DNA of 30,045 nucleotides, taken from a virus. Location of the stretch: IMG/VR virus record IMGVR_UViG_3300048009_000065, positions 1 to 30,045 of that record, one strand, 5' to 3'. The first letter of the stretch is position 1. Each line of letters begins with the position of its first letter. Below, piece by piece: positions 7,103 to 29,830 of the stretch. The notes under the pieces were generated by a model. It did no database searches and was not told the DNA's origin. It saw only the letters and a program-made list of their open reading frames with translations. Position numbers and translations under genes: made by a program.

Positions 7103-7113
7103 ACACAAACACA

Positions 7114-7287: not shown

Positions 7288-7801
7288 AAGATTTAGAAGA
7301 ACACCTGAAGAGATTGAGCAAGGCTTAACAGTAGAACAAGCGAAAGCTGCAAGAATAGAGAAAGAGATTCAAGATGCAGAGAAAGCAGTTGCTGAGGTTT
7401 GTGATGAGCCTATTAAGACTCAAGAAGAACTAGAAGAGAAACACGCAGAGAACGCACCAACTGGATTAGGAGATGTAGTAGAAGCAATAACAGAAGTTAC
7501 TGGTATTAAAAAGGCTGTAAAGTTTCTAGCTGGGGAAGATTGCGGATGTGATGAGCGTAAAGAAAAACTCAATAAGATGAGGTTCAGAAAACAACCGCTT
7601 TGTCTTACAGAATCAGAGTATACTTTTCTGCATGGTTTCTTTACAAATTCAAATGGAATGGTAAGCCAATCACAGAACTATGAACTAGCGACAATATACG
7701 CTAGAGTATTCCAGAAGAAAGGCGTAGAGGTTACAAGCTGCTCAAGTTGTGTTAAACAACGTGTAAAGGACTTAAAAGACATTTACAACACTTACGAATA
7801 A
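7277..7801 (+). CDS. Conserved phage protein with GEDCGCDERKEKLN motif
   Basis: 174 residues. A charged N-terminal helical part (1-58, RTPEEIEQGLTVEQAKAARIEKE) is followed by TGLGDVVEAITEVTGIKKAV and GEDCGCDERKEKLNKM (about 61-100), a motif I associate with Bacteroidetes phage genomes although its function is unknown. A C-terminal domain ends with a CSSCVKQRVKDL cysteine pair, which together with CGC could bind a metal. Last gene of the early/middle block, followed directly by a terminator hairpin. An assembly or regulatory role cannot be decided from sequence. Confidence 0.65.
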   Translation: MANKRFRRTPEEIEQGLTVEQAKAARIEKEIQDAEKAVAEVCDEPIKTQEELEEKHAENAPTGLGDVVEAITEVTGIKKAVKFLAGEDCGCDERKEKLNKMRFRKQPLCLTESEYTFLHGFFTNSNGMVSQSQNYELATIYARVFQKKGVEVTSCSSCVKQRVKDLKDIYNTYE

Positions 7802-7873: not shown

Positions 7874-7903
7874 TTGTTTATTATAAAAGTTCCATTATAT
7901 TTG
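7874..7903 (+). promoter_or_regulatory. Bacteroidetes-type promoter (TTG ... TATATTTG)
   Basis: TTG at 7874-7876, 19 bases, TATATTTG at 7896-7903, matching the Bacteroidetes -33/-7 pattern. The leader (7904-7935) holds ACAAACAAAC and AGTAAAGGA, close to the leader at 9840-9871. Confidence 0.75.
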
Positions 7904-7935: not shown

Positions 7936-8148
7936 ATGAAAGATTTAGAATTATTATCAGGTAAGGAATTAGTTGATTATTTATTCTCTTTAGATGATGA
8001 GAGAGAAATGCAAGAATTCGAAAGGGTGGAGGATGAGCTTAACTGTAGATACGAGCCGGAGTATGTATCTAAATTATATAGAGAGTATAAGATTAAAACA
8101 TTCTTTTTTCTCAAGTTATTGGGACTAATCAAAGATGATACTTACTAA
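7936..8148 (+). CDS. Small acidic hypothetical protein in its own transcription unit
   Basis: 70 residues (MKDLELLSGKELVDYLFSLDDEREMQEFERVEDELN...). Acidic N-terminal half, then a short hydrophobic basic end (YKIKTFFFLKLLGLIKDD) that may be an amphipathic helix. It has its own promoter (7874-7903) and a downstream hairpin (8172-8196), so it is expressed independently of the early and late blocks, like a moron gene. No family recognised; a host-interaction or regulatory role is inferred only from the cassette structure. Confidence 0.6.
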   Translation: MKDLELLSGKELVDYLFSLDDEREMQEFERVEDELNCRYEPEYVSKLYREYKIKTFFFLKLLGLIKDDTY

Positions 8149-8204: not shown

Positions 8205-8231
8205 AACAAATCTGGATTTTTAAGTTATAAT
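8205..8231 (+). promoter_or_regulatory. Candidate late promoter 1 (AACAAAT-N11-AGTTATA)
   Basis: AACAAAT at 8205-8211 and AGTTATA at 8223-8229, 11 bases apart, continuing TA to give TATAAT at 8226-8231. Lies 20 bases before the small terminase gene. The same pair with the same spacing is found at four other structural-gene starts. Confidence 0.6.
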
Positions 8232-8249
8232 AACATAAAATAACATAGA

Positions 8250-8540
8250 ATGCCATTTAAAAAAGGAAACAAAGAAGCTAGTGGTAGACCTAAAGGCTCA
8301 GAGAACAAACTAACAACAGAAGCAAGAGAGATGTTTATACAGACATTGGAAGGTCAAGTACCAAACATTCAGCAGGCGTTCTATGACGTCCTCGCAAAGA
8401 GTCCAGAGAAGTATCTAGACCTATTCGCTAAATATGCTCAGTACTTTGTACCTAAGAAAACAGAATCAGAAATTAAAGGAGAGCTGAGTAGTTCAATAGA
8501 CTTTAATGAAGTGATGCGTAAGTTCAATGGGGAGGATTAA
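8250..8540 (+). CDS. Putative terminase small subunit
   Basis: 96 residues opening MPFKKGNKEASGRPKGSENK, the basic GRPKGSxNK arm seen at the start of many Bacteroidetes phage small terminases, followed by a helical segment (TTEAREMFIQTLEGQVPNIQQ) and a short C-terminus that overlaps the large terminase gene by 14 bases. The small subunit would bind packaging sites on the concatemer and load the motor. Identity rests on the N-terminal motif and on position; sequence conservation in this family is poor. Confidence 0.65.
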   Translation: MPFKKGNKEASGRPKGSENKLTTEAREMFIQTLEGQVPNIQQAFYDVLAKSPEKYLDLFAKYAQYFVPKKTESEIKGELSSSIDFNEVMRKFNGED

Positions 8541-9732
8541 GAACGTCTATCGAAAGTTTAATAATCCTACTCGTTACTTCATCGTAACTGGAGGTCGTGG
8601 CTCTGGTAAGTCGTATGCTGTTAATACTATTCTTTGCATGTTAACTTGCGAGGTAGGGCATACGATACTATTCACACGTTACACTTTGAGAGCTGCGAGT
8701 ATATCTATTATTCCAGAGTTCATTGAGAAGATTGAGATGTTAGGACTAGAGAAAGCGTTTCACATTACTAAGGATGAAATCATAAACATACAGACTGGTT
8801 CTAAGATTCTATTCAGAGGTATAAAAACCAGCTCTGGAAACCAAGTAGCTTCTCTCAAGTCTTTGCAAGGAGTAACAACGTGGGTACTAGATGAAGCGGA
8901 AGAGCTTGTAGATGAGAACGTATTTGACACGATAGATATGTCAGTACGTCAGAAGGGAATAGCTAACAGAGTCATAATGATAATGAATCCAACGACAAAG
9001 GAACATTTTATCTATCAGAAGTTCTTTGAGACTAGAGGAGTTCAAGAGGGAAGCAACATAAGCAAAGACGATACTACATACATACACACTACCTACCTAG
9101 ACAACTTAGAGAACTTATCTGAGAGCTTCCTAAAGCAAGTAGAGAACATTAAACAGAGAAGACCAGAGAAGTATAAGCACCAAATACTAGGAGGCTGGTT
9201 ATCTAAAGCTGAAGGCGTGATATTCTCTAACTGGGAAGTCGGAGAATTTAAGCGAGTAGGTACTTCTGTTTATGGTCAAGATTTCGGTTTCTCAGTAGAC
9301 CCTACAACGCTAGTAGAGACGAATGTAGACAAAGCAAGTAAGAAGATATATCTTAGACTTCATCTGTACAAGCCAAACCTAACCACAAGCCAAATACACC
9401 AAGTGAATGAAAAGGTAGCTGGTACGAGCTTAATTATAGCAGATAGCGCAGAGCCTCGATTGATAAAAGAACTAAAGCAAAAAGGACTTAACATAATTCC
9501 AGCTGTGAAAGGTCAAGGCTCAGTAACTCATGGAATAACTATACTACAAGATTACGACCTAGTGATAAGTCCAGATTCTCAGGAGTTGATTAAGGAGCTA
9601 AATAACTACTGTTGGCTTGAACGTAAATCTAACACGCCAATAGATGACCACAACCACGCCTTAGATGCTATCAGGTACGCTGTGACATATCAGCTTGAGA
9701 AACCAAATAGAGGTAAGTACTTTATTTACTAA
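8527..9732 (+). CDS. terL: Terminase large subunit (PBSX/Terminase_3 type)
   Basis: 401 residues with both domains of the DNA-packaging motor. ATPase: Walker A GGRGSGKS (22-29), Walker B VLDEAE (120-125), coupling-motif-like MIMNPT (151-156). Nuclease (RNase H fold): GQDFGFSVDPT with D252, LIIADSAEP with D306, and HALDAIRYAV with D380. The length fits PBSX-type large terminases. The start is taken at ATG 8527 within the end of the small-subunit gene, because the Walker A spacing from the start is then normal. It packages DNA into the prohead through the portal, which is encoded about 12 kb away rather than next door. Confidence 0.93.
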   Translation: MGRIKNVYRKFNNPTRYFIVTGGRGSGKSYAVNTILCMLTCEVGHTILFTRYTLRAASISIIPEFIEKIEMLGLEKAFHITKDEIINIQTGSKILFRGIKTSSGNQVASLKSLQGVTTWVLDEAEELVDENVFDTIDMSVRQKGIANRVIMIMNPTTKEHFIYQKFFETRGVQEGSNISKDDTTYIHTTYLDNLENLSESFLKQVENIKQRRPEKYKHQILGGWLSKAEGVIFSNWEVGEFKRVGTSVYGQDFGFSVDPTTLVETNVDKASKKIYLRLHLYKPNLTTSQIHQVNEKVAGTSLIIADSAEPRLIKELKQKGLNIIPAVKGQGSVTHGITILQDYDLVISPDSQELIKELNNYCWLERKSNTPIDDHNHALDAIRYAVTYQLEKPNRGKYFIY

Positions 9733-9803
9733 AAAAACTTTCGCTCTGTATCTCAGTCATAGTGGGCAAATCAAAAATAATTTAAAAAAAGTTTGTGAAT
9801 AAC

Positions 9804-9834
9804 TTGTGAGATACAAACAATGTGCTTATATTTG
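9804..9834 (+). promoter_or_regulatory. Bacteroidetes-type promoter (TTG ... TATATTTG)
   Basis: TTG at 9804-9806, 20 bases, TATATTTG at 9827-9834. The 36 bases 9801-9836 match 28937-28972 at 33 positions, so the two promoters are near copies. Confidence 0.8.
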
Positions 9835-9871
9835 TACCAACAGAAACAAACAAAGTAAAAGTAAAGGAATC

Positions 9872-10147
9872 ATGAGGAATTTAATCGAAGAATCAAAGGT
9901 AAAATCAGAAACACTATTTAGAGGTGGCGTAGCAGAGTTTAATAAGGTAATTGTTAAATTTGAAAAGGGAGGTAGAGATTATATATATGAAATATACAGG
10001 TCATCGTTTAAGGGTGGGAGTCATCATATCTGCTGTACATCTTTCGAGCATGGTTTGTACGACTATGCGCAAGAGAGGTCTAAGGTATACAGTGATAACG
10101 CTAAATTTGAAGCAGCTATAAAAAGAATACAATCTAAGATATCTTAG
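9872..10147 (+). CDS. Small hypothetical protein, 91 aa, in its own transcription unit
   Basis: Start taken at ATG 9872 (MRNLIEESKVKSE...). An in-frame ATG at 9806 lies within the promoter itself, so it should be untranscribed. The protein is basic with predicted strands (AEFNKVIVKFEKGGRDYIYEIYRSSF) and contains HHICC at mid-length, a possible metal site. It has its own promoter (9804-9834) and terminator (10167-10191) and sits between the terminase and tail genes, a typical spot for a moron. No family recognised. Confidence 0.6.
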   Translation: MRNLIEESKVKSETLFRGGVAEFNKVIVKFEKGGRDYIYEIYRSSFKGGSHHICCTSFEHGLYDYAQERSKVYSDNAKFEAAIKRIQSKIS

Positions 10148-10166
10148 TAAATCATAACACACAGAG

Positions 10167-10191
10167 AGCCTCCAGAGATGGGGGCTTTTTT
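10167..10191 (+). terminator. Rho-independent terminator
   Basis: A 7-bp stem (10167-10173 with 10180-10186, one G-T wobble), loop AGAGAT, followed by T5. Same loop as at 7831 and nearly that at 28882. Confidence 0.85.
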
Positions 10192-10198
10192 GGTTTAT

Positions 10199-10225
10199 AA
10201 CAAAATAGAAACATTTAGTTTTATA
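10199..10225 (+). promoter_or_regulatory. Candidate late promoter 2 (AACAAAA-N11-AGTTTTATA)
   Basis: AACAAAA at 10199-10205, 11 bases, AGTTTTATA at 10217-10225, then ATG at 10230. The -10-like half almost touches the start codon, so a transcript from here would be nearly leaderless. Confidence 0.5.
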
Positions 10226-10229
10226 AGTA

Positions 10230-10913
10230 ATGAAAGCAACAATAACAATTCCAGAAGATTTAAGCGAGATAACTCTAGGACAATATCAATCGTTTTTAAG
10301 CGCTTCTAAGGGACTCGAAGGCGATGAGTTAGCACAATGTACAGTAAGCTCGTTATGTGGCGTTAGAATCAACGAGGTGGCAAATATAAAGCTATCTGAT
10401 GTTAGAGACATAAGCGAACATTTGAATATGCTGTTTAGTGTAGAGCAAGATATACAAGTTAGGTTTAAACTTGAGGGTGTAGACTTCGGCTTTATACCAT
10501 CGCTTGAATCTATCACTTTCGGAGAGTATGTAGATTTAGATAAGTACTCCACAGACTGGGAAGAGATGCACAAAGCTATGGCAGTTCTTTACAGACCAGT
10601 AGTCAACACCTATAAAGACAAGTACGAGGTAAGAGATTACGATGGCACAGAAGAGTTCGCAGAGGTCATGAAGTTTATGCCGTTGAATGTTGCGATGGGT
10701 TCGCTGGTTTTTTTTTATCGTTTAGGAAACGAACTATTGAAAGCTACGCACAACTATTTGAAGCAAGAGCTGAAAGAGATGATTACAGCGAACAAGCACA
10801 ATTCAATAGACAATGGGGATGGTATCATTCAATCTATGCACTCGCAGATGGAGATATTGGAAAGTTCGGAGATGTTACAAAAATTAGAGCTTCCCAAGCA
10901 TTTAATTTTCTAA
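10230..10913 (+). CDS. Tail assembly chaperone-like protein, zero-frame product
   Basis: 227 residues. The N-terminal part (ITIPEDLSEITLGQYQSFL) and the ITFGEYVDLDKY and AMAVLYRP segments (around 95-125) resemble phage proteins of Bacteroidetes that I take to be tail-assembly chaperones; this assignment is tentative. The coding sequence contains nine T in a row (10708-10716, codons GTT TTT TTT TAT), and from that run the -1 frame is open for a further 86 codons (see the 10715-10975 entry). The short and extended products would then be the equivalents of lambda gpG and gpGT. The gene is not directly before the tape measure, as chaperones usually are, but opens the whole tail block behind a candidate late promoter. 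Confidence 0.6.
   Translation: MKATITIPEDLSEITLGQYQSFLSASKGLEGDELAQCTVSSLCGVRINEVANIKLSDVRDISEHLNMLFSVEQDIQVRFKLEGVDFGFIPSLESITFGEYVDLDKYSTDWEEMHKAMAVLYRPVVNTYKDKYEVRDYDGTEEFAEVMKFMPLNVAMGSLVFFYRLGNELLKATHNYLKQELKEMITANKHNSIDNGDGIIQSMHSQMEILESSEMLQKLELPKHLIF
10708..10716 (+). other. Slippery T9 run: programmed -1 frameshift site
   Basis: Nine T; in the zero frame T_TTT_TTT occupies 10709-10715, an ideal X_XXY_YYZ heptamer for a simultaneous -1 slip. The -1 frame downstream is open to 10975. A -1 slip joins 162 zero-frame residues to 86 new ones (about 248 aa). Polymerase slippage on T9 would have the same effect. Confidence 0.65.
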
Positions 10914-10975
10914 CCTATATAAAACAGAAAAACCAACTAGAAAGAAACCTAATGAATAAAGCACTAAAAAGATGA
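10715..10975 (+). CDS. -1 frame extension of the chaperone (gpGT-like C-terminus)
   Basis: Reached only by frameshifting; no start codon is needed. From codon TTA at 10715 the frame runs 86 codons to TGA at 10973-10975 and includes QFNRQWGWYHSIYALADGDI and then FNFLTYIKQKNQLERNL, a pattern (WGWY..IYxLA.GDI....KI) that I associate with the downstream half of such proteins in Bacteroidetes phages. Its stop forms a 4-base ATGA overlap with the next gene at 10972, the coupling used across this genome, whereas the zero-frame stop leaves 58 unexplained bases. The 10716-10913 stretch is therefore dual-coding. Confidence 0.65.
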   Translation, partial: LSFRKRTIESYAQLFEARAERDDYSEQAQFNRQWGWYHSIYALADGDIGKFGDVTKIRASQAFNFLTYIKQKNQLERNLMNKALKR

Positions 10976-11427
10976 CAGCATTCTACGACATAACAACACT
11001 ACTTAAAAACGCCTTAGAAGAGGACGTAAACGTTAACACAGTATCTGAGGGAGACATATTTAAAGTAGACCTAAACAAACAGACTATCTTTCCTCTATCG
11101 CATATTATGGTTGGAAGCGTTTTACATCAAGGTGCAGTAGTTAGCTTTTCGGTTTCTATTATACTCACAGACATAGTAGACATAAACAACGAACAAACGA
11201 AAGACGTGTTTGTAGGAAACGATAACGAACACGATGTACTTAATACTCAGTTTGCAGTAGGGATGAGGTTAATGGAAAGAGCAAGACGAGGAGACATCTG
11301 GGGAGATAAATACCAGCTAGATGGACAACCTACATTCGAGCCATTTACAGAACGCTTTGAGAACTACCTAGCTGGATGGGCTTTGAGCTTTAACGTACTG
11401 TATAAAAACGATATGACTATCTGCTAA
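10972..11427 (+). CDS. Putative tail terminator/completion protein
   Basis: 151 residues, predicted alpha/beta: an N-terminal helix (YDITTLLKNALEED), strands around HQGAVVSFSVSIILTDIVD, then a helix with NTQFAVGMRLMERARRGD and a C-terminal strand (GWALSFNVLY). Size, fold order and its place just before an HK97-gp10-like gene fit a tail terminator or neck protein. It starts on the stop of the frameshifted product and ends one base into the next gene. No strong family motif; the call depends on context. Confidence 0.4.
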   Translation: MTAFYDITTLLKNALEEDVNVNTVSEGDIFKVDLNKQTIFPLSHIMVGSVLHQGAVVSFSVSIILTDIVDINNEQTKDVFVGNDNEHDVLNTQFAVGMRLMERARRGDIWGDKYQLDGQPTFEPFTERFENYLAGWALSFNVLYKNDMTIC

Positions 11428-11945
11428 TGCAAGAGGTACAGAAATATCTAAGCAAGTTCGCCAAGAACGTAATTAAGGAAAGCAGAAGCAGACTGAGCAA
11501 ATCTAGTAAGCGAGATACTAACAACTTGTATGGCTCACTAGGTTATCAGTTAGATGTGTTTAAGAACTCGTTTAGCTTGAGCTTCTACATGGAAGAGTAC
11601 GGAGCTTTCGTAGATGAGGGAGTACAAGGTAAGAGGTCGAGCGCAAAAGCTCCACAGAGTCCTTTTAGATTTGGTAGTGGTTCGGGTAGAAAAGGAGGAC
11701 TAAGAGAAGCCATTTCTAAGTGGATAGAAAGAAAAGGAATACAAGGCAGAGATAATCAAGGAAGGTTTATAAGCAACAAGAGCTTAACAACTTTAATATC
11801 TCGAAGCATTTATAACAAGGGTATCGCTCCAAGTATGTTTTTTACTAAACCATTTGAGAACGCATTTAAGAACTTACCAGACGAGATAATACAGAAATTT
11901 AACCTAGATATTGACGAGCTAATAGAAAGCTCTTTAAACACTTAA
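11427..11945 (+). CDS. HK97 gp10-like head-tail joining protein
   Basis: 172 residues. YGAFVDEGVQG (about 58-68), followed by a glycine/serine-rich loop, SKWIERKGI and a terminal FFTKPFENAFKNLPDEI helix follow the layout of HK97-gp10-like neck proteins, where the Y..xVExG strand and the P-F...A final helix are conserved. These proteins sit at the head-tail joint. Encoded on a 1-base overlap (TAATG) with the preceding gene. Moderately confident from pattern; the exact step (adaptor or stopper) is open. Confidence 0.55.
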   Translation: MQEVQKYLSKFAKNVIKESRSRLSKSSKRDTNNLYGSLGYQLDVFKNSFSLSFYMEEYGAFVDEGVQGKRSSAKAPQSPFRFGSGSGRKGGLREAISKWIERKGIQGRDNQGRFISNKSLTTLISRSIYNKGIAPSMFFTKPFENAFKNLPDEIIQKFNLDIDELIESSLNT

Positions 11946-11947
11946 AA

Positions 11948-12982
11948 ATGTCAGAACCAATAAACGTAAGAAGTCCAAAGATAATAAGCGCTACTGGTGT
12001 GGCTAATGATGACATACGAGCTGAGATATTCCTATGGAACGACCCAGCAACACAACCAGCTACTCCTAACTTTATACTTGAGAAACCAATACCAAGCAGT
12101 ATAATTACAGAGTGTCATTTCGATATATCGCCATATTGCAGAGGCTTCATTGAACATATCAACTACGTAGAAGTAACAACAGACACAGCAGCCAATGTGA
12201 ACGAGTACGCTTACTGCCATGTAGACGTATATCGTAACGGAGTACTTCTACTAGCTTCATTCGATTACAACTTCATTTGCTTTGATGGTTTCGGATACCA
12301 TGCAGAAGGAGCGAATCCAGCGCACACACAATTCTTATCCGATGGAGATTACTACGTTAACGCTGTCGGTAATAGTGGAGGCGTTTATTATTATGATGAC
12401 CAGTCCGTAACTTGGGAGGCTAGATACACAGACCTAGCAGCTGGAGGGACTACTACAACCATAACACTAGCCAATGAGGTAGGTTATATTCCTTACGTTC
12501 ATTTATCGTATCTAACAACTGGTAACAAGCTAGAAATTATCAAAGACTCAGTAGTACAAAATACCTACTATTTTCACGTTCAAAGCGAATGTAAATACGA
12601 GACTATAAATTGTGACTTTGTTAACAAGTTCGGAGCGTGGCAAAGGTTAGTATTCTTTAAGGCTTCACAAGAGAACTTTACAATGTCAAACTCTGAGTAC
12701 AACCTAATGCCAGAAGATATAGATTACAACGTAAAGCGAAATGTAAGACAAGTATTTAACGTTAACGGAATGGATAAAATAACTGTTAATACTGGATGGG
12801 TGTTTGAATCATACAGCGAGGTAATGAAACAGCTACTACTGAGCGAGAAAATCCTACTAGATGACAAACCAGTAAACGTAGACACGAAGTCCTTAGAATT
12901 ACAGAAGAACATAAACAACAGAAACATAAATTACAACCTTTCATTTAAATACTCGAATCCAACCTTAAACTACAACATATAA
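11948..12982 (+). CDS. Tail/baseplate structural protein, 344 aa
   Basis: Strand-rich protein with no signal peptide or membrane segment. Segments such as ITECHFDISPYCRGFIEHI (about 54-72), YRNGVLLL and NCDFVNKFGAWQRLVFF (around 223-240) are of the sort seen in Bacteroidetes phage tail proteins. Placed between neck-type genes and the large 797-residue protein, with a 1-base overlap to the latter. Role inferred from position; probably a distal-tail or baseplate component. Not assigned to a named family. Confidence 0.5.
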   Translation: MSEPINVRSPKIISATGVANDDIRAEIFLWNDPATQPATPNFILEKPIPSSIITECHFDISPYCRGFIEHINYVEVTTDTAANVNEYAYCHVDVYRNGVLLLASFDYNFICFDGFGYHAEGANPAHTQFLSDGDYYVNAVGNSGGVYYYDDQSVTWEARYTDLAAGGTTTTITLANEVGYIPYVHLSYLTTGNKLEIIKDSVVQNTYYFHVQSECKYETINCDFVNKFGAWQRLVFFKASQENFTMSNSEYNLMPEDIDYNVKRNVRQVFNVNGMDKITVNTGWVFESYSEVMKQLLLSEKILLDDKPVNVDTKSLELQKNINNRNINYNLSFKYSNPTLNYNI

Positions 12983-15375
12983 TGAGAAAGGTACAGATAT
13001 ACGTTAACAATAAAAGGGTAGACTTATTTAACGATGAGAAGATAGTAGTTAAGTCTAGTGTTCAAGATATTGCAGACATTGCTAAAGTGTTTACCGACTT
13101 CTCGCAGAGCTTTACACTTCCAGCGAGTGACAACAACAACGAGATATTTGGGTTCTACTACAATAACGATAACGATAGCTTTGATGCCAATACGAGAGTA
13201 GATGCAAGAATAGAGATAGACTTTAATAAGTTCAGAAAAGGAAAGCTACAGCTTGAAGGTACAACGATAAAGAACAACCAAATAGAATCGTACAAGGTTA
13301 CTTTTTATGGAGATGTGGTAACGCTTAAAGATGTCATAGGAGAGGCAAAGCTAAGAGATTTGGACTATTCTAGTATATCACAAAATTACAGCGGTTCAGA
13401 TGTTCAAGACTCAATCACAGACCCTACGTTTAGAGATATACGTTTTCCTTTAATTAGTTCAGACAGAATCTGGACTTACAACGATGGAAGCGGTATAGAC
13501 TTACCAACTCAAGCAGTAAACTATCAAGAACTATTCCCAGCAGTTAGCGATGCTAAAATAATGGATATTATAGAGGACACTTTTAACGTAACTTTTCAAG
13601 GTAACTTTTTAACAGACCAGCGTTTTAAGAAGTCTTATACTTGGTGGAAAAATAGCAATAATCCAAACTTTACTTCTGAGCCAATAGATATAACTTTCAA
13701 TCCTCTTAATACTTCATGTACTACTAATATTCCAAACGCAGTAGGTACTAATGTTGTGAATGTTGAATATATAAATTTAAATACTACTCCTTTTGTTGTA
13801 AGTCCAAGTTTTATAGATTGGGTTTATAATTCGTTTATTCACAAAATAAAAATAGCAGTATTTAACACCTCTACAAGTAGTAATTTCTTTGTTGATGTTT
13901 ACAAGAACGGAACTCTAATAAACACTATAAGTGGCTCAAATAGTATTGTACAAGATGTTGTTGTACAAAACAACTCTACTGGATTAGATGATGAGTACAC
14001 GTTTCAATTTAGAAGTATAGGCGCTATGAGTTTTGACTTTAATATACAGTACACTTTTCAAGGATTGTACACCTTTGGTAGTTTTGGAATTCCTCAAGGC
14101 AGTAACTATTTAACAGAAACTTGCAACTACACAACTACTGGACTACTTACAAGTGGAACTCTAAATCTAACAACAACAGCTCCAGACATGAAAGTTACAG
14201 ACTGGTTGGCTGGTACTCTAAAGCAGTTCAATTTAACTTGCTATCCTTTGGATGAAGAAAAGACTTATCAGGTTGAGCCATTAGAAGACTGGTACGCTGC
14301 TGGAGATGTTATCGACATCACTAAGTATGTAAACACAGATACGATACAAGTAGACCGCTTAAAACTGTACAACGAAATCAACTTTGAATATGTAAAAAGT
14401 AAGGCGTTTTTAAACGATGCTTTTGAGGGTATAAACGCTAGACAGTACGGAAACCTAAAAGAAGTATTTAATAACGATGGTGGCAAGTACGAAGTTAAGC
14501 TACCTTTTGAAACTTTGCTTTTTACAAACTTCGATACTATTAACGGAAACTTGCAAGTATCTTACTGCTTAGAAGAGCCTACTGTACCAGTAAAGCCGTA
14601 CATACCAAAACCAGTAAAGCTGTATTTACAAGATTCTAAAGTATGTCAATTCTATTTCAACGATGGAACTAGTAATAACCTGGTATCTTCTTATATGCCA
14701 TTCGGTCAAGAGATACAGTACAATAACGCTGAGTACTCTATAAACTTTGGAGAGGAGGTAAGCTCACTATCCAACAACGTAGTAACAAACAGCTTGTACC
14801 AGACTTATTATCAATCTTACATTGTAAACTTATTCAATACCAAAAGTAGAAAAGTATCGCTAGAGTGTATGCTTCCTCTTGAGATTCTGACTAAGTTAAC
14901 TCTAGACGATGCGATTATAGTAAGAGATAAGAAGTACAGAATTAACGACATGACAAGCGATCTAACAAGCGGAATTGTAAAGATGGTTCTAGTTAGTGAC
15001 TTTGTAGATGAGAGAACGCTACAACCAACGCCTCCGCCTATACCAGATGTAGGAGGTACAATATACGTTCCAGTCAAAAATAAAAACGGAGGCTATACAG
15101 ATTTTCAAGCACCAATAGAAGCTCCATTTATTACCTCATCTATTCCGCTTCCATCTACTAGAGTAACTGGAGAACAGATTTGGACAATAACAGCACCAGC
15201 CAACACTACTGGACAAGATAGAACTCAGACTATAATATACTCCTCTTACTATGCAGATGGTTCGTTAGCGTGGACTAGAACGCTTGTAGTAACGCAAGAG
15301 GCATATAGTGACAAACTACTCACAGAAAGTGATGGTTCAATACTACAAGAAAACTTTGACAATATACTACTATGA
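12982..15375 (+). CDS. Large tail/baseplate protein with BACON-like C-terminal domain
   Basis: 797 residues. The N-terminal third (VQIYVNNKRVDLFNDEKIVV, FTDFSQSFTLPAS, LEGTTIKNNQIESYKVTFYGDV) looks like a tail hub or baseplate-type beta structure. The centre is strand-rich and Asn/Thr-rich. Around 700-785, EQIWTITAPANTTGQDRTQT ending in TLVVTQEAY has the BACON/Ig-like signature (an R/T-rich strand and a final V.Q.A strand), a domain common in Bacteroidetes carbohydrate-binding proteins. It precedes the tape measure, separated by a 48-residue ORF. Likely contributes to the tail tip and surface adhesion; the enzymatic state is unknown. Confidence 0.55.
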   Translation: MRKVQIYVNNKRVDLFNDEKIVVKSSVQDIADIAKVFTDFSQSFTLPASDNNNEIFGFYYNNDNDSFDANTRVDARIEIDFNKFRKGKLQLEGTTIKNNQIESYKVTFYGDVVTLKDVIGEAKLRDLDYSSISQNYSGSDVQDSITDPTFRDIRFPLISSDRIWTYNDGSGIDLPTQAVNYQELFPAVSDAKIMDIIEDTFNVTFQGNFLTDQRFKKSYTWWKNSNNPNFTSEPIDITFNPLNTSCTTNIPNAVGTNVVNVEYINLNTTPFVVSPSFIDWVYNSFIHKIKIAVFNTSTSSNFFVDVYKNGTLINTISGSNSIVQDVVVQNNSTGLDDEYTFQFRSIGAMSFDFNIQYTFQGLYTFGSFGIPQGSNYLTETCNYTTTGLLTSGTLNLTTTAPDMKVTDWLAGTLKQFNLTCYPLDEEKTYQVEPLEDWYAAGDVIDITKYVNTDTIQVDRLKLYNEINFEYVKSKAFLNDAFEGINARQYGNLKEVFNNDGGKYEVKLPFETLLFTNFDTINGNLQVSYCLEEPTVPVKPYIPKPVKLYLQDSKVCQFYFNDGTSNNLVSSYMPFGQEIQYNNAEYSINFGEEVSSLSNNVVTNSLYQTYYQSYIVNLFNTKSRKVSLECMLPLEILTKLTLDDAIIVRDKKYRINDMTSDLTSGIVKMVLVSDFVDERTLQPTPPPIPDVGGTIYVPVKNKNGGYTDFQAPIEAPFITSSIPLPSTRVTGEQIWTITAPANTTGQDRTQTIIYSSYYADGSLAWTRTLVVTQEAYSDKLLTESDGSILQENFDNILL

Positions 15376-15518
15376 TAGATTTATTAATACAGATGTTAAA
15401 AGTCTCAGACTTCTACGGAGAGAGCGAACTAATAGACATAGCAAAAGGAAAGCACAAGATAAGCAAATCAATTAAAGAGAAGTCTAAACAGATTAAAAGA
15501 GAGAAAGCATGGCAGTAA
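15372..15518 (+). CDS. Small basic hypothetical protein, 48 aa
   Basis: ATG at 15372 overlaps the stop of the 797-residue gene (ATGA), and the TAA at 15516-15518 lies 10 bases inside the tape measure gene. The 48-residue product (MIDLLIQMLKVSDFYGESEL...) ends in a lysine-rich helix. Tight packing on both sides and no other occupant of the gap support it as real. Function unknown. Confidence 0.6.
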   Translation: MIDLLIQMLKVSDFYGESELIDIAKGKHKISKSIKEKSKQIKREKAWQ

Positions 15519-17668
15519 AAAAGACCGTTGAAATAGATATTAAAAGCAACAGCAAAAAAGCGGATAAGGATTTAAAAGAAATAAAAAAAGACATTGACGC
15601 TATTGGGAAAAGCGCAAAGAAAAATCTATCTGGAGAGAATGCTAAAAAGCTAAACAAAGAACTTGACAAAACAGCTCAAGCTGCTAAGAATACAAAGACT
15701 AGATTAAGAGAGCTTGAGGATGAGTTAGCAGATATCGGAGATGTTAACAGTCCACAGTTTCAGAAGTTAGCAAAAGAGGCTGGTGTACTAAGAGACCAAA
15801 TGAATAACGCTAAGGCTGCGGTTCGTAGTATGTCGGCAGACTTTCCAAGATTGCAATTAGGTGTTCAAGCATTTCAAGCGATTGGAGGAGCTGCTCAAGG
15901 TGCAATGGGTGCGGCTGCTTTATTTGGTTCTGAGAATGAAGAGGTAACTAAGAGCATTCAAAAGCTAATGGCTGTACAGTCAATCCTAAATAGTGTTAAC
16001 GCTGTTGCCAATGCTTTAAGTGATGAGACAGCACTAGGTTTAAAAGTAAGAACTGTATTAACAAACCTACAAGCAAAGGGGGATAAAAAATTAACACTTG
16101 CAACTATAAGACAAACAGCAGTACAAACAGCAGCTACGGCTGCTACTAAAGTAGCTACTGTTGGAATGAGAATCTTTAATGCAGTAGTAAACGCAAATCC
16201 TTTATTTTTGTTGGTGACTGCTATTACTGCTGTTGTCGGAGCATTTGCTTGGTTTTTCTCTAGCTCTGAAGACTTAGAAGCGCAAAATGAAAAACTAAAC
16301 GCAAGTTTTGATAGGCAGATTGAGAAGATGGATAAGCTGTCTAATAGACGAAAGAAAAACGCAGAAGAAGCTAGTAGAGAACTAGAGGCTAGTATTAAAA
16401 AAGAAATTCAACTTCTAAAAGAAAAAGGAGCGGATGCTGAACTACTTAGAGATGTTGAACTTGGATTTGAAGTACAACGAATACAGCAAAGGTTAAAAAA
16501 CGCAGAAGCCGAAGAAAAAGAAAGAGTTGATAGAATTAAAGCTAACAAAGACTTTTATAATGATGCAGCTAAAAGAAGAAGAAAGGCTTACAAAGAAGAA
16601 GAGTACGAGCTTGGCGATAGCATTAATCAAAAGATGAAAGCCAGAAGAAAAGAAAACGAACAATTAATTCTTTTAAACAACGAATATAACACAAAAAAGA
16701 TAGAGCTAAATACTGAATTAGAAATAATATTATCTAAGAATAGAGAGAATAATAGAAAAGACGAAGAGGCAGATTACAAAGCTAGACAAGATAGATACAA
16801 AGAATTCTTACAAAAAAAGGAAGCTGCAAGAAAGCAAATAGAAGACTTAACAAACCAAGCTATTGAAGACGATGAACAAAGAGAAATAGCAAAAGCAAAA
16901 ACAAAGCACGAGAGAGACATAGAAAACATAGTAGGAACAGAAGACCAGAAGAACCAAATTAAAATATTAAAGGCAGACGAACTAGAAAAAAAGTTAGCTG
17001 AAATAAGAGCTAAATATAGAGAAGAAGAAATACCTTTAAGAAAACAAGCCGACTTAACAGAAGAAACAGCGAATATAGATGCAGCAGTAGCAAAAAGGAA
17101 AACAGAAGAACAAACTCAAAAGTATCTAAAAGAATACGATGAAGAGGAAGCACAAAGAAAGAGAGACTTAGCAGACCAAAGATTAAGTTTAGCTTCTGAA
17201 ACTTTCGGAGCTTTGGGAGACCTAGCAACTGCATTCGCTAAAGATGATGAGAAGTCAGCAGAGAGAGCGTTTAAAGTTAATAAAGCAGTTGGTATAGCTC
17301 AAGCAGTAATAAGTACGGCTCAAGGTGTAATGGCTCAACTATCAGTTCCTCAAGATGCTTTGACTGGTGCTAACTTTGTAAAGGCTGGAATAGTAGCAGC
17401 TACTGGTGCGGCTCAAATTGCTACAATAGCAAAAAGTAAGTTTCAAGGCGGTGCTGCTGGTAGTAGTCCAACTGCTCCAAGTGGTAGCGTATCTACTCCA
17501 TCATCACAGCCAGCGAGTTTCAACGTAGTAGGTAATTCTGGAGTAAATCAATTAGCTGAGACTTTAGGCAATCAAGGACAACAACCTATACAAGCGTTTG
17601 TAGTAGGTTCTGAGGTTACAACTCAGCAGAGCTTAGATAGAAATAAAGTAGAAACAGCGACACTATAA
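15509..17668 (+). CDS. Tail tape measure protein
   Basis: 719 residues with typical tape-measure architecture: a charged coiled-coil N-terminus (1-110), Ala/Gly-rich hydrophobic segments around 115-140 and 225-250 (NANPLFLLVTAITAVVGAFAWFF), a long Lys/Glu coiled coil (about 255-560) and a Gly/Ser/Ala-rich C-terminus that ends AFVVGSEVTTQQSLDRNK, an ending common in Bacteroidetes tape measures. It sets tail length; at roughly 1.5 angstrom per residue the tail would be near 100 nm, in keeping with a siphovirus. No lytic transglycosylase or peptidase domain is visible. The stop is followed 4 bases later by a stable hairpin. Confidence 0.88.
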   Translation: MAVKKTVEIDIKSNSKKADKDLKEIKKDIDAIGKSAKKNLSGENAKKLNKELDKTAQAAKNTKTRLRELEDELADIGDVNSPQFQKLAKEAGVLRDQMNNAKAAVRSMSADFPRLQLGVQAFQAIGGAAQGAMGAAALFGSENEEVTKSIQKLMAVQSILNSVNAVANALSDETALGLKVRTVLTNLQAKGDKKLTLATIRQTAVQTAATAATKVATVGMRIFNAVVNANPLFLLVTAITAVVGAFAWFFSSSEDLEAQNEKLNASFDRQIEKMDKLSNRRKKNAEEASRELEASIKKEIQLLKEKGADAELLRDVELGFEVQRIQQRLKNAEAEEKERVDRIKANKDFYNDAAKRRRKAYKEEEYELGDSINQKMKARRKENEQLILLNNEYNTKKIELNTELEIILSKNRENNRKDEEADYKARQDRYKEFLQKKEAARKQIEDLTNQAIEDDEQREIAKAKTKHERDIENIVGTEDQKNQIKILKADELEKKLAEIRAKYREEEIPLRKQADLTEETANIDAAVAKRKTEEQTQKYLKEYDEEEAQRKRDLADQRLSLASETFGALGDLATAFAKDDEKSAERAFKVNKAVGIAQAVISTAQGVMAQLSVPQDALTGANFVKAGIVAATGAAQIATIAKSKFQGGAAGSSPTAPSGSVSTPSSQPASFNVVGNSGVNQLAETLGNQGQQPIQAFVVGSEVTTQQSLDRNKVETATL

Positions 17669-17696
17669 AAAAAGGGTAGGAAACCACGCCTACCCT
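17667..17696 (-). terminator. Minus-strand intrinsic terminator
   Basis: Perfect 8-bp stem (17673-17680 with 17689-17696), 8-base loop. Read on the - strand it is followed by T7 (A7 at 17667-17673 on +). On the + strand there is no T tract after the stem, unlike every other terminator here. Its orientation implies an antisense transcript ending here, although it may also slow + strand transcription. Confidence 0.5.
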
Positions 17697-17778
17697 AATA
17701 CCTAACCTTAAAGAAACTAAGGGAACATAAATAAATAAATTAAATTAAATTTTGCTCTCAATAGCAGATGCAAATATA
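17667..17778 (-). ncRNA. Candidate minus-strand small RNA
   Basis: The 154-base gap 17669-17822 has no gene. On the - strand it holds a TATATTTG box (17771-17778 in + coordinates), then about 100 bases with two hairpins (CCTTA/TAAGG at 17706-17722 and the 8-bp stem at 17673-17696) and a T7 tail. This is the layout of a small terminated RNA. The -33 partner is weak: TTG lies 16 or 23 bases upstream rather than 19-20. It would overlap only the last two bases of the tape measure gene. Speculative. Confidence 0.3.
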
Positions 17779-17792
17779 ACAAAAGAATTTAA

Positions 17793-17819
17793 AACAAAAC
17801 ACAAAAAACTAGTTAAATA
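17793..17819 (+). promoter_or_regulatory. Candidate late promoter 3 (AACAAAA-N11-AGTTAAATA)
   Basis: AACAAAA at 17793-17799, 11 bases, AGTTAAATA at 17811-17819, then ATG at 17823. Same spacing as the other four sites, with the -10-like half 3 bases before the start codon. Confidence 0.5.
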
Positions 17820-17822
17820 AAT

Positions 17823-18743
17823 ATGCAGACTATAGAACTATTTATCAAAGACGAAGACGAAGATGGAGTATTCGCAATTTCGCTAGTAGAAAATCCAGCT
17901 ATCATGGAGGACTTTATAGCACTATCTGAGGAAGACGCTAACAAGTTCACAGTAGAATTAAAGACTATTGATGAAGAGAGAAAAGTAGTAGTAGGATACG
18001 CTTTAATTCCAGACCTTGAAATACCTAGAGTTAAAGATGGTAAGCAGTTCAATATCATAATGTCAAAAGAGACAGTTTCTAAAGCTGCTGAATTGTACAT
18101 GAAGAACTTAAACCTAAACAACGTAACAAGCGAACACGAGAAGCCGGTAAAAGACTGCTGCGTTATTGAGAGCTGGATAGTAGAAGACAAAGATAACGAC
18201 AAGGCTAATATGTACGGACTTGAGCCTAAAGGTGGAGAGTGGGTAGTAATGATGTCACTAAGTGATTCAGAGTACAGCAAGGCAAAAGATGGTACTTACA
18301 AAGGTTTCAGTATAGAAGCAATCTTTCAAGGCTTTGAGGCTTTGCAAATGAATGAAGAGGTAGAGCTTGAATCATATAACGACTATCCGCAAAGCGCAAA
18401 GAACAACGCTAAGAAAGTTTTAAAGTGGAGAGATGAGTACGGAGATGAGGTACAAGGAATGACAAGAATAGGCTGGACTCGTGCAAACCAATTAGCAAAG
18501 GGAGAAAATATCACAAGAGATACAATTGCTAGAATGGCATCTTTTAAACGTCACGAAAAGAACGCAGAAGTAAGCGAAGAGTTTAAAGATACTCCATGGA
18601 AAGATAAAGGTAGAGTAGCTTGGCTTGGATGGGGTGGAGCTTCTGGCATTAACTGGGCGATTGATAAACTAAAGTCCATAGATAACAAGTCTGAGCTTAA
18701 AGACATAGTAGAACAGATTAAAAATATTATTGAATCTAAGTAA
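17823..18743 (+). CDS. Prohead protease (XkdF/S78-like) with extra C-terminal domain
   Basis: 306 residues. The first half fits the XkdF-like prohead protease group: VVVGYALIPDLEIPR (about 55-69), TSEHEKP with candidate catalytic His105, and YKGFSIEA with candidate Ser163. The second half (about 186-290: YPQSAKNNAKKVLKWRDEYG, GWTRANQLAKGENITRDTIARMASF, then WKDKGRVAWLGWGG) is a separate helical domain, known fused to phage head proteins, with no function assigned to it that I know of. It would cleave scaffold and capsid termini during prohead maturation. The scaffold and capsid genes follow directly. Confidence 0.8.
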   Translation: MQTIELFIKDEDEDGVFAISLVENPAIMEDFIALSEEDANKFTVELKTIDEERKVVVGYALIPDLEIPRVKDGKQFNIIMSKETVSKAAELYMKNLNLNNVTSEHEKPVKDCCVIESWIVEDKDNDKANMYGLEPKGGEWVVMMSLSDSEYSKAKDGTYKGFSIEAIFQGFEALQMNEEVELESYNDYPQSAKNNAKKVLKWRDEYGDEVQGMTRIGWTRANQLAKGENITRDTIARMASFKRHEKNAEVSEEFKDTPWKDKGRVAWLGWGGASGINWAIDKLKSIDNKSELKDIVEQIKNIIESK

Positions 18744-18893
18744 ATGAGACGTAAAAAGAAATACGCTACAAAGCTAACAGCAGAGGAGTACGAAAAGTTA
18801 ACTGGACAGCGTATAGGTTCTCTAGTTAATCAAGGCGTGAGCAATGTTGTAAACGTAAATACTGAGCGTACTATTATCAACGTAAGCAGTTAA
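18744..18893 (+). CDS. Small hypothetical protein, 49 aa
   Basis: The ATG at 18744 immediately follows the protease stop (TAA ATG). Encodes a basic start (MRRKKKYATKLTAEEYEKL) and a Val/Asn-rich end. Gene-like packing, and it fills most of the space before the candidate late promoter at 18900. Not recognised. Confidence 0.55.
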   Translation: MRRKKKYATKLTAEEYEKLTGQRIGSLVNQGVSNVVNVNTERTIINVSS

Positions 18894-18899
18894 AAATAA

Positions 18900-18926
18900 A
18901 ACAAATCAATAATAAGTAGTTATATA
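18900..18926 (+). promoter_or_regulatory. Candidate late promoter 4 (AACAAAT-N11-AGTTATA)
   Basis: AACAAAT at 18900-18906, 11 bases, AGTTATA at 18918-18924, 18 bases before the scaffold ATG. Would drive scaffold and major capsid protein. Confidence 0.6.
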
Positions 18927-18942
18927 GTTAAATATCCAACAA

Positions 18943-19590
18943 ATGAAAGAGCAAATTAATACAATTTTAAAAGCAGTAGGCTTGAAAGCCGAAGAGATTA
19001 AACTAGCTGAGGCTAAGTTAAAAGATGGCGTTACAATGATTGAAGCTACTCCAGACTTCGAAGCTGGTGCAGCAGTAATGGTAAAAACAGAAGACGAGCA
19101 ACTTATTCCAGTTCCAGTATCTGGAGAAGGAGAAGCTTACGAACTCGAAGATGGTAGAGCGTTCAAAGTAGCAGAAGAAGGAGTTATTTCTGAAATGGTA
19201 GAAGTTGAAGAAGAAGCAGAAGAGCCAACAGAAGAAGTATCGGAGGAAGTTACAGAAGAACCAGCAGAAGAAGTTGAGGCATCTGAGGAAGTACGACCAG
19301 CTAAATCTATCATTGAGTCAGTAGTTAAAGAAACTAAGTTCTCAAAAGAAAGCGCACTAATCGAAGCGTTGACTGCTGAAATTACAGAGCTTAAATCACA
19401 GCTTGAAGCATCAACAAAAGTTGAAGAGGTAGAAGAAGAGGTAACTGAGGAAGTAGAGCTTTCAGAGGTTAAGCCTATCACTCACAATCCAGAGCCAAAA
19501 GCAGAAGTAAAACTACACACTTTCGGAAACAAAAGAAAGAGAGGTACTACTGATTCTGTAATGAGTAAAATAGCAAAATTGAATAAATAA
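18943..19590 (+). CDS. Capsid scaffold protein
   Basis: 215 residues, immediately before the major capsid gene. The middle (about 80-180) is extremely acidic, with repeated EEVTEE and EEVEE blocks interrupted by a predicted coiled coil (FSKESALIEALTAEITELKSQLE). The C-terminus is basic (FGNKRKRGTTDSVMSKIAKLNK), as in scaffolds that bind the inner capsid wall through a positive tail. Scaffolds are cleaved or expelled after assembly, probably here by the protease encoded upstream. Sequence identity is not diagnostic; composition and position carry the call. Confidence 0.7.
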   Translation: MKEQINTILKAVGLKAEEIKLAEAKLKDGVTMIEATPDFEAGAAVMVKTEDEQLIPVPVSGEGEAYELEDGRAFKVAEEGVISEMVEVEEEAEEPTEEVSEEVTEEPAEEVEASEEVRPAKSIIESVVKETKFSKESALIEALTAEITELKSQLEASTKVEEVEEEVTEEVELSEVKPITHNPEPKAEVKLHTFGNKRKRGTTDSVMSKIAKLNK

Positions 19591-19614
19591 TAATTTTTTT
19601 AATAAACAACAAAA

Positions 19615-20556
19615 ATGGCAACAACAACAAACATTACAACTACATACGCTGGAGAAAAAGCAGCTGGATATGTAGCAGCAGCGTTATTGAGCGCTAACAC
19701 TATTGAGAATGGCGGTATTACAGTAAAGCCAAACGTAAAGTACAAAGAAGTATTGAAAAGAGTATCTACTGACGATTTGTTAGCAGATGGTTCTTGTGAC
19801 TTCTCAGCAACTTCTACACTTACTTTGGATGAGAAGATTCTTGAGCCAGAAACTTTCCAATTAAACTTGCAACTTTGTAAGGCAGATTTCCGTTCAGATT
19901 GGGATGCAATCGAAATGGGATATTCTGCATTCGATGAGCTTCCGGCATCTTTCGCTGATTTCTTAATTGGACACGTAGCAGCTAAAGTAGCTGGTAAGAT
20001 GGAGCAAAACATCTGGTCTGGAGTTAACGCTAACGCTGGAGAATTCGATGGTTTCGAAACTTTGTTAGCAGCAGAGGCTGAGCTTCCAGCTGGACAGCAA
20101 ATCGCAGCAATCGCTGGAGGAGTTGACGCTGGTAACGTAATCGCTGAACTTGGAAAAGTAGTAGACGCAATTCCTACACGTTTGTACGGAGAGGAAGGAC
20201 TTACTCTTTACGTTTCTTCTAACGTTTACAGAGCTTATGTACGTTCACTTGGTGGATTCGGAGCTAACGGACTTGGAGCAGCTGGTGTTAACGCACAAGG
20301 TAACAACCAAATGTTCGGAGATTTAATGTTCGATGGTATTCCATTGTTCATGTGTAACGGAATGTCTGACGATACAGCTATCTGTACTACTAAAGATAAC
20401 TTGTACTTCGGTACTGGTTTGGCTTCTGATTCACAAGAAGTGAAAGTTTTGGACATGAGCGATTTGGATGGTTCACAAAATGTACGTGTAATCATGAGAA
20501 TGACTGCTGGAGTTCAGTACGCTTTCGCTGGTGACGTTGTAACTTACGGAATCTAA
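19615..20556 (+). CDS. Major capsid protein (HK97 fold)
   Basis: 313 residues. Segments such as KYKEVLKRVSTDDLLADGSC near the N-terminus, NLQLCKADFRSDWDAIEMG (about 83-101), KMEQNIWSGV (near 126-135) and a final AFAGDVVTYGI strand are the pattern of Bacteroidetes phage HK97-like capsids. It has no N-terminal delta domain, so the separate scaffold gene fits. Codon use is more biased than in neighbours (many GGA, GCT, AAC, TTC codons), as expected for the most abundant virion protein. A strong terminator follows. Confidence 0.85.
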   Translation: MATTTNITTTYAGEKAAGYVAAALLSANTIENGGITVKPNVKYKEVLKRVSTDDLLADGSCDFSATSTLTLDEKILEPETFQLNLQLCKADFRSDWDAIEMGYSAFDELPASFADFLIGHVAAKVAGKMEQNIWSGVNANAGEFDGFETLLAAEAELPAGQQIAAIAGGVDAGNVIAELGKVVDAIPTRLYGEEGLTLYVSSNVYRAYVRSLGGFGANGLGAAGVNAQGNNQMFGDLMFDGIPLFMCNGMSDDTAICTTKDNLYFGTGLASDSQEVKVLDMSDLDGSQNVRVIMRMTAGVQYAFAGDVVTYGI

Positions 20557-20582
20557 GAATTAATTATTAACCAATAAAAAGA

Positions 20583-20611
20583 GGGGAGGTAAAATGCCTT
20601 CCCTTTTTTTT
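20583..20611 (+). terminator. Rho-independent terminator after capsid gene
   Basis: A 7-bp G/C-rich stem (20583-20589 with 20597-20603, one wobble), 7-base loop and T8. Confidence 0.88.
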
Positions 20612-20629
20612 ATATAAAACTTTAAAAAT

Positions 20630-21169
20630 ATGTCATGTGACTTATCATTAGGCAGAATAGAGCCTTGTAAAGATGTAGTAGGTGGATTGGATGCAATTTA
20701 CTTCATCAATTACGAAGATGCTCCTCTTTCTGGTATCGTTTACGATACAACAAATACAGACGTTATCGAAACTCTAGGAACTGGTATCGACTGCTACAAA
20801 TACGAATTGAAAGGTACTTCTTCTTTCGAGCAAACTATTACAAGCTCAAGAGATAACGGTACTACTTTCTTCGAGCAAGTGTTGAACTTGTCTCTAAAGA
20901 AGCAAGATTTAGCTACTCACAAAGAAGTTAAATTGTTGTCTTTCGGTCGCCCTCATATCATTGTAAAAGACCACAACAACAATTTCTTTTACTGTGGTCT
21001 AGAGCATGGAGCAGAGGTAACTGGTGGTACTATATCAACAGGGGCTGCATTTGGTGACGCCTCAGGATACAATATCACTCTTACTGCACAAGAGCGTATT
21101 CCTGCAAATTTCTTTGAAGCAACAGACGAGGCTGGACTTGTAACGGCTGGATTGGTTATTAACTCATAA
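20630..21169 (+). CDS. Probable major tail tube protein
   Basis: 179 residues, strand-rich, with no membrane segment. It opens with LGRIEPCKDVVGGLDAIYFINY; YELKGTSSFEQTITSS and FFEQVLNLSLKKQD (about 56-95) precede FYCGLEHGAEVTGGTISTG and a GYNITLTAQERIPANF end. This order of strands and the GxExTGGT..TG...GD..GY motif recur in Bacteroidetes phage tail-tube-like proteins. It sits between two terminators right after the capsid gene, consistent with high separate expression. Another virion protein such as a decoration protein is possible. Confidence 0.55.
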   Translation: MSCDLSLGRIEPCKDVVGGLDAIYFINYEDAPLSGIVYDTTNTDVIETLGTGIDCYKYELKGTSSFEQTITSSRDNGTTFFEQVLNLSLKKQDLATHKEVKLLSFGRPHIIVKDHNNNFFYCGLEHGAEVTGGTISTGAAFGDASGYNITLTAQERIPANFFEATDEAGLVTAGLVINS

Positions 21170-21191
21170 TCAACAAAACAATCTTTTAAAG

Positions 21192-21218
21192 CCCTTGCCT
21201 TTTGGTAGGGGTTTTTTT
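21192..21218 (+). terminator. Rho-independent terminator
   Basis: An 8-bp stem (21192-21199 with 21204-21211, two wobbles), TTTT-type loop and T7 tail, 22 bases after the tail-tube stop. Confidence 0.88.
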
Positions 21219-21224
21219 ATTTAA

Positions 21225-21251
21225 AACAAATTCTTTTTTTTTAGTTATATA
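21225..21251 (+). promoter_or_regulatory. Candidate late promoter 5 (AACAAAT-N11-AGTTATA)
   Basis: AACAAAT at 21225-21231, 11 bases, AGTTATA at 21243-21249, ATG at 21255. Placed between a terminator and the portal block, exactly where a new promoter is needed. Confidence 0.65.
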
Positions 21252-21254
21252 AGT

Positions 21255-21584
21255 ATGATTATACTACGTGAGTCTTTACTATCTCAATCGTTTAAGTTTA
21301 TACCACGAACTTTAAGCGCAGATAGTATGGTTATAACTGATGAAGCAGAAAACACAAGCGACACAATAGCTATTACTCCAGTAGTAGATAGATACTATTT
21401 AAGCGTTTCTGAGGTACTTACTCTCGTAGAAGGTAGGTTTTATACTCTGACAGTTTTAAACGGAACAGACGTAGTATATAAGGACAAGATATTCTGCACA
21501 AATCAAGTAGTAAAAGACTACACTATTAACAAAGATGAGTACGTACAGAATGAGACAAACAACGAATTTGTAATTATTGACTAA
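21255..21584 (+). CDS. Hypothetical virion-associated protein, 109 aa
   Basis: 109 residues, predicted beta-sandwich (FIPRTLSADSMVITDEAENT, YYLSVSEVLTLVEGRFYTLTV, VVYKDKIFCT). It begins 5 bases after a late-promoter-like element and overlaps the portal gene by one base. A small structural or tail-associated protein is likely by location; no family recognised. Confidence 0.6.
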   Translation: MIILRESLLSQSFKFIPRTLSADSMVITDEAENTSDTIAITPVVDRYYLSVSEVLTLVEGRFYTLTVLNGTDVVYKDKIFCTNQVVKDYTINKDEYVQNETNNEFVIID

Positions 21585-29828: not shown

Positions 29829-29830
29829 AC

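Follow-up and report, generated by a model that had tools for sequence, protein, structure and literature searches.

The 30,045-nt stretch of DNA from a marine, Bacteroidetes-type phage analyzed here (the window; IMG/VR virus record IMGVR_UViG_3300048009_000065) carries five copies of a two-box motif that are very probably late promoters of the extracytoplasmic function (ECF) type, read by the phage's own sigma factor encoded at 6557-7102. An initial annotation had proposed a phage-specific late promoter class with this reader, which is, on sequence grounds, the best explanation of the observations below. The ECF form, the family-wide spread, and the predicted start on the start codon go beyond what that annotation had seen. 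This reading is supported by two boxes with fixed spacing that occur on the coding strand only and at late genes only, and that are conserved despite drift of the spacer, by the recurrence of the motif in the distant isolate P12024L, and by the ECF-like sigma gene that the family keeps beside the terminase. The motif is common to the family and not private to the window phage. The putative promoters and their proposed reader are as follows.

8205-8229, plus strand: putative late promoter copy 1, AACAAA-N12-AGTTATA, upstream of the small-terminase-like gene
10199-10225, plus strand: putative late promoter copy 2, AACAAA-N12-AGTTTTATA, upstream of the gene at 10230
17793-17819, plus strand: putative late promoter copy 3, AACAAA-N12-AGTTAAATA, upstream of the prohead protease gene
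18900-18924, plus strand: putative late promoter copy 4, AACAAA-N12-AGTTATA, upstream of the scaffold-like and capsid-like genes
21225-21249, plus strand: putative late promoter copy 5, AACAAA-N12-AGTTATA, upstream of the small gene preceding the portal gene
6557-7102, plus strand: ECF-like sigma gene, 181 aa, regions 2 and 4 only; proposed promoter reader

Two-Box Motif in the Window

All five copies reported in the initial annotation are present on the plus strand. The invariant unit is AACAAA-N12-AGTT. The constancy of the spacing was thus described correctly, while the reported figure of 11 nt depends on how the boxes are written; the trailing ATA is shifted by 2 nt in two of the five copies. 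Scanning both strands of the window for this exact form gave five matches on the plus strand and none on the minus strand, and all matches fell at the five gap sites, in agreement with the reported absence of the motif elsewhere in the window. Markov-simulated sequence of the same composition contained on average 0.24-0.36 copies, with a maximum over 300 runs of four copies at order 1 and two to three at orders 2-3. Among the spacers from 0 to 30, only 12 stands out (five matches, compared with 0-2 for each other spacer), and a blind ranking of dyads in 19 upstream regions of the window placed CAAA-12-AGTT at the top. When three mismatches were allowed, 32 matches were found and 25 were expected. 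Since this is no enrichment, loose scans mislead and the exact form matters.

All five copies are located in gaps, though noncoding DNA constitutes 6.6% of the window, and they precede the following late gene blocks, two of them directly after a terminator-like hairpin.

8250-8540, plus strand: small-terminase-like gene, after copy 1; assigned by position ahead of the terminase large subunit (TerL) gene and weak matches to DUF5681 and phrog_8771
8527-9732, plus strand: TerL, PF04466 2.5e-33
10163-10190, plus strand: terminator-like hairpin, directly ahead of copy 2
10230-10913, plus strand: late gene, after copy 2; phrog_32199 (unknown function)
17823-18743, plus strand: prohead protease, after copy 3; PF14550 2.3e-13
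18943-19590, plus strand: scaffold-like acidic protein, after copy 4; assigned by position ahead of the capsid-like gene
21188-21215, plus strand: terminator-like hairpin, directly ahead of copy 5
21255-21584, plus strand: small late gene, after copy 5; its 3' end overlaps the portal start
21584-23353, plus strand: portal protein, phrog_33693 8e-97

The label "chaperone/tail" for the gene at 10230 rests on position: family searches with the 10230-10913 product matched no family with known function. Family searches with the scaffold-like protein likewise gave no family of known function. The two listed hairpins correspond to the terminators reported ahead of sites 10199 and 21225. A weaker hairpin-like stretch ahead of 8205 is visible by eye in the sequence and was not called by the terminator search. 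With a terminator-like hairpin directly ahead of copies 2 and 5, transcription of these late blocks would be restarted there.

The motif is also distinct, as reported, from the Bacteroidetes promoter TTG/TAnnTTTG. The TAnnTTTG -7 box is not present at the late sites, the only look-alike at the five copies being TAGTTTTA within AGTTTTATA at copy 2; a host primary promoter was rejected for this reason. The same genome does contain host-type promoter matches ahead of its cassette genes; TTG/TAnnTTTG matches lie in or beside gaps at 7874-7903, 9804-9834, and 28940-28970.

Phage-Encoded ECF-Like Sigma Factor

The sigma-like gene that the initial annotation placed just upstream of the late region is corroborated by profile, fold, and homologue evidence. 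Its product matches the sigma70-ECF profile TIGR02937 over residues 9-166, nearly the whole profile, with E 1.9e-8, a match below the curated cut-off, and 32 of 34 diverse homologues match the same profile. A profile built from the family of the window sigma finds the solved SigH and SigW structures in PDB; the single window protein, compared with PDB by phmmer, gave unrelated matches only. In the AlphaFold2 model (mean predicted local distance difference test score, pLDDT, 81), the first Foldseek matches are Mycobacterium tuberculosis SigH, AlgU, Escherichia coli SigmaE, and SigL, all of them ECF sigma factors. The separate domains fit well (TMt ~0.5-0.75), and the weaker whole-chain scores probably result from a different packing of the two domains.

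ECF sigma factors normally consist of the sigma2 and sigma4 domains only and read promoters with an AAC -35 element and a CGT -10 element (PMC8103513). The 181-aa window protein has just these two domains with a short linker. The AAC of the -35 box is found as AACAAA in five of five window copies and as (A/T)ACA family-wide; the spacer is rigid, with N12 in all five copies and a family peak at 14-15 nt after AACA. The -10 box is CGTT, with the CGT hallmark, in P12024L and in many lineages, AGTT in the window clade, and TTTTTAA in one sub-clade.

From these features we infer that the phage sigma binds the sites and that they belong to the late temporal class. In the proposed scheme, the host primary holoenzyme would read the early genes, including the sigma gene 6557-7102. 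The phage sigma would then join the host core RNA polymerase and redirect it to the five late promoters, where its regions 4 and 2 would recognize AACAAA (-35 box) and AGTT (-10 box), respectively. Transcription would begin at a pyrimidine/A step, 11 nt past the G of GTT.

Of 43 long contigs of the family, 40 carry an ECF-like sigma gene, as does P12024L; in relatives, the gene lies upstream of the terminase. The three long contigs lacking it are 20-26 kb in length and are possibly fragments. In the lineages L016, L222, L224, and L237, a late-type site is located 11 nt ahead of the sigma gene's own ATG, which would make positive feedback possible; no such site precedes the ATG of the sigma gene in the window. 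In six contigs (G010, G019, G020, G034, G037, and G040), the sigma match crosses one or two in-frame stops, for which the end of the gene, a pseudogene, and recoding are candidate explanations. The contig of L188 (59,277 bases, G032) has two sigma genes and about twice the usual length of the family, and is probably a concatemer or a chimera.

Conservation in Metagenomic Relatives

More than 590 matching stretches of IMG/VR contigs were returned for this phage family; the late region had no megablast match among phage records. Alignment of the same gaps in relatives, proposed as a check in the initial annotation, demonstrated that the boxes are kept at orthologous genes while the spacer drifts. 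In close relatives (TerL 88-100% identical), the unit is retained at the small-terminase, tail-region, protease, scaffold, and portal-upstream genes, with changed spacers as in AACAAATCTGGATTTTTAAGTTATA, AACAAATTGGTGTTTTTTAGTTATA, AACAAATTAGCCTTTTTTAGTTATA, and AACAAATTTATGTTTTCAAGTTTTA; copy 1 with a drifted spacer is conserved in L006, L008, and L014. In distant relatives (TerL ~70%, capsid ~65%), the same architecture is observed at the same genes, directly upstream of ATG, and the second box is CGTTAT, CGTAAAA, GGTTAA, or AGTTAT, approximately 15 nt after (A/T)ACAA. The family consensus is (A/T)ACAA, ~15 nt, (C/A/G)GTTA.

When dyads were ranked over the complete pool of distant upstream regions, shared ancestry dominated the result, and per-contig ranking and de-redundant ortholog sets were used instead. 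Outside the close clade, the gap from AACA to (A/C/G)GTT in non-redundant upstream regions peaks at 14 and 15, found in 14 and 22 regions, respectively, compared with 2-3.3 regions in the coding and shuffled controls. Profile alignment was used to pick gene starts in the metagenomic contigs, and the annotated starts of P12024L agree with them.

Nonlabens phage P12024L is an isolate with a TerL 55% identical to that of the window. It contains seven AACAA...CGTTA sites (at 147, 2999, 5380, 22059, 24740, 25979, and 27580), in which the G lies 10-11 nt ahead of the annotated starts 179, 3031, 5412, 22090, 24771, 26011, and 27612. All seven starts lie outside the replication and recombination region, at late genes. 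Its gp35, annotated with Sigma-70 region 2 and encoded just upstream of the terminase genes, was recovered by the profile of the window's sigma family with E 1.3e-10; the window sigma itself had no tblastn match in phage records. Among the phage records searched, a sigma close to that of P12024L was found only in P12024L and P12024S. Riemerella phage RAP44 (TerL 46% identical) gave no match to the sigma profile and was left out of the comparison. Bacterial genomes scanned by TerL yielded one distant Bacteroidales match only. Based on the isolate and the host-type promoter matches, we tentatively infer a flavobacterial host.

Predicted Start Points and Putative Leaderless mRNAs

The position of the -10 box relative to the start codon was analyzed at tail-region, protease, and portal-upstream genes, whose upstream regions, made non-redundant at 75% identity, numbered 104. 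In 42 of these 104 regions, GT occupies -11/-10 from ATG; the corresponding counts are 7 among 348 other intergenic starts (p 2e-23) and 5 among 154 inner late genes (p 1.7e-14). Both boxes are present in 31/104 regions, against a single case in each control set (1/348 and 1/154). The distance from the G to ATG is 11 nt in 12 of 14 and 13 of 17 sites. Immediately ahead of ATG, at a position that played no part in site selection, T is found at 32 of 33 two-box sites, compared with 44% of controls.

In the open complex of SigH, the two T's of the -10 element GTT are located at -10/-9 from +1, and the spacer is rigid (PMC6411747). Given this geometry, GT at -11/-10 from ATG places the predicted +1 on the A of ATG. 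At the scaffold and small-terminase genes, the two-box spacing is kept and the distance to ATG is greater and variable. Among 19 leadered sites, further from ATG, a pyrimidine/purine step is found at the same 10/11 place in 13, the next-best place having 10. In the window, a pyrimidine/A step lies exactly 11 nt after the G in five of five copies. Transcription should accordingly begin at 8235 (a C/A step) for copy 1, with a 15-nt leader; at 10229 for copy 2, with a 1-nt leader; and at 18930 for copy 4, with a 13-nt leader. For copies 3 and 5, the predicted start is the A of ATG itself, at 17823 and 21255, respectively, and leaderless transcripts are expected.

An A-rich stretch at -13 to -10 is linked to strong translation in Flavobacterium (PMC6847099). 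It is kept at control starts and weakened at the two-box late genes, as expected if at these genes the stretch lies outside the mRNA. Leaderless mRNAs constitute only 5.5% in F. psychrophilum (PMC9723704). We consider it likely that much of the late program in this large, for the most part uncultured, Bacteroidetes phage family depends on leaderless mRNAs, with the +1 of an ECF-type promoter on the A of ATG, so that the promoter switch would be coupled to a switch in the mode of translation, a mode that one sub-clade would have left together with a change of its -10 box.

Divergent Sub-Clade with a Changed -10 Box

In this sub-clade (L123, L165, L113, L153, L116, and L029), AACAA-N15-ATTTTTAA replaces the GT box at the same genes. 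The boxes lie further from ATG than those of the GT class, and a short A-rich leader is predicted for these TTTTTAA-type transcripts. In the sigma tree, one change separates the GT and TTTTTAA classes. The -10 box and the sigma factor may accordingly have evolved together, although phage kinship alone would produce the same pattern.

Alternative Explanations

Several observations weigh against late promoters read by the phage sigma. On the side of the protein, the TIGR02937 match falls under the curated cut-off and the match to Pfam Sigma70_r2 (E 2.6e-4) is also under cut-off, while the Foldseek whole-chain E-values exceed 0.001 with a large root-mean-square deviation. No anti-sigma factor was noticed among the neighbors at 6115-7801, where no dedicated search was made, and no inhibitor of the host sigma was identified; a co-transcribed anti-sigma is no longer counted as defining for ECF sigma factors (PMC8103513). 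On the side of the promoter, the -10 box of the window clade is AGTT and not the CGT hallmark, one sub-clade has no GT box, and 10 of 77 sigma-bearing contigs have neither the GT box nor the TTTTTAA form with the patterns used. In addition, the family counts are de-redundant and not phylogenetically independent, and the -10 class also tracks phage kinship, so that its link to the sigma is a correlation.

The late promoters could be read by a host ECF sigma instead of the phage protein. One flavobacterial promoter class has a CGT -10 element (SM6, PMC9723704), and several ECF sigmas exist in flavobacteria, which makes the form readable by the host. This explanation is nevertheless unlikely, as across the family the phage sigma stays beside the terminase, changes of the -10 box parallel the sigma tree, and a host stress sigma would presumably not provide dependable late timing. 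A translation-initiation or mRNA element beside the start codon, with no promoter, would account for the second box being fixed at 11 nt from ATG at many genes. We regard it as very unlikely: at the scaffold and small-terminase genes, the unit keeps its spacing while its distance to ATG is larger and varies, the first box lies ~30 nt upstream, and the A-rich stretch that aids translation is weakened at these late genes but preserved at controls.

A further possibility, that a phage repressor or activator uses the sites as operators, is suggested by the partly palindromic copy 1 (TATAAC...GTTATA) and by reverse-strand near-matches at copies 1, 2, and 5. Copies 3 and 4, like relatives with CGTTA, lack this symmetry, and the conserved copies are on one strand; the palindrome was rejected as non-conserved, and operators are highly improbable. 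Chance similarity might be suspected in an AT-rich genome where three-mismatch matching is not enriched, and is scarcely credible given five exact copies against ~0.3 expected, the family-wide statistics, and the seven copies in P12024L. Late promoters recognized by the phage ECF-like sigma thus remain the preferred explanation.

Other Features of the Window

Two small cassette genes (7936-8148 and ~9869-10147) split the packaging region, and each is followed by a late-type motif copy and has a host-type promoter match, at 7874-7903 and 9804-9834, respectively. The sequence at the cassette site in the packaging region is variable among relatives. The listed open reading frame (ORF) 9806-10147 has a GTG start that overlaps the latter match, and an ATG near 9869 is probably its true start. 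The protein encoded at 7277-7801, directly upstream of the terminase block, has paired cysteines (CGC, CSSC), and similar cysteine-bearing ORF ends are visible at the same place in relatives. An identical 25-nt start region (AACAAAAATTATGAACACATTTAAC) is located ahead of two different early genes, at 3147-3171 and 3569-3593. Finally, the two ends of the window share a 325-bp stretch (68-391 and ~29722-30045) with 94% identity, resulting either from terminal redundancy or from a circular or permuted genome assembled from a mixed population.

Comparison with Known Systems and Implications

Takeover of late transcription by a phage sigma program is familiar from T4 gp55 and SPO1, where other sigma families and promoter boxes are involved; T4 late promoters consist of a -10 element only.

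PhiEco32 and its relatives provide precedents for late promoters served by a phage-encoded ECF sigma (PMC4331800, PMC4281155, PMC7881722). The window family resembles phiEco32, 7-11, and Kuravirus in having a phage ECF sigma (gp36 in phiEco32) and few well-conserved promoters ahead of structural genes. The middle and late promoters of phiEco32 are a single element, tAATGTATAtA (TGTGATGTTATA in 7-11), 6-8 nt ahead of the start in phiEco32; this element (PMC4281155) is not present in any of the five window copies. In the window family, by contrast, a rigid spacer separates an AAC-type -35 box from a short GTT box situated at the start codon. Canonical ECF promoters, including flavobacterial SM6, are similar in box sequences, in the rigidity of the spacer, and in their location with respect to the predicted +1 (PMC8103513, PMC6411747, PMC9723704); the difference is that here they would serve phage late genes with the predicted +1 on ATG. 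The literature searched, largely without subscription journals, contained no paper on the promoters of this phage family. Three features appear to be new: a family-wide phage ECF promoter class, its positioning on the start codon, and the altered -10 box of one clade.

In summary, the motif would provide a readable late-gene switch for a phage family with more than 590 matching stretches of IMG/VR contigs. GT at -11/-10 and T at -1 offer a simple rule by which late genes could be located in metagenomic members of the family. The system makes testable the co-evolution of a phage ECF sigma with its promoter, in which the -35 box is constant and the -10 box changes, and the use of leaderless late phage mRNAs in hosts without Shine-Dalgarno initiation.

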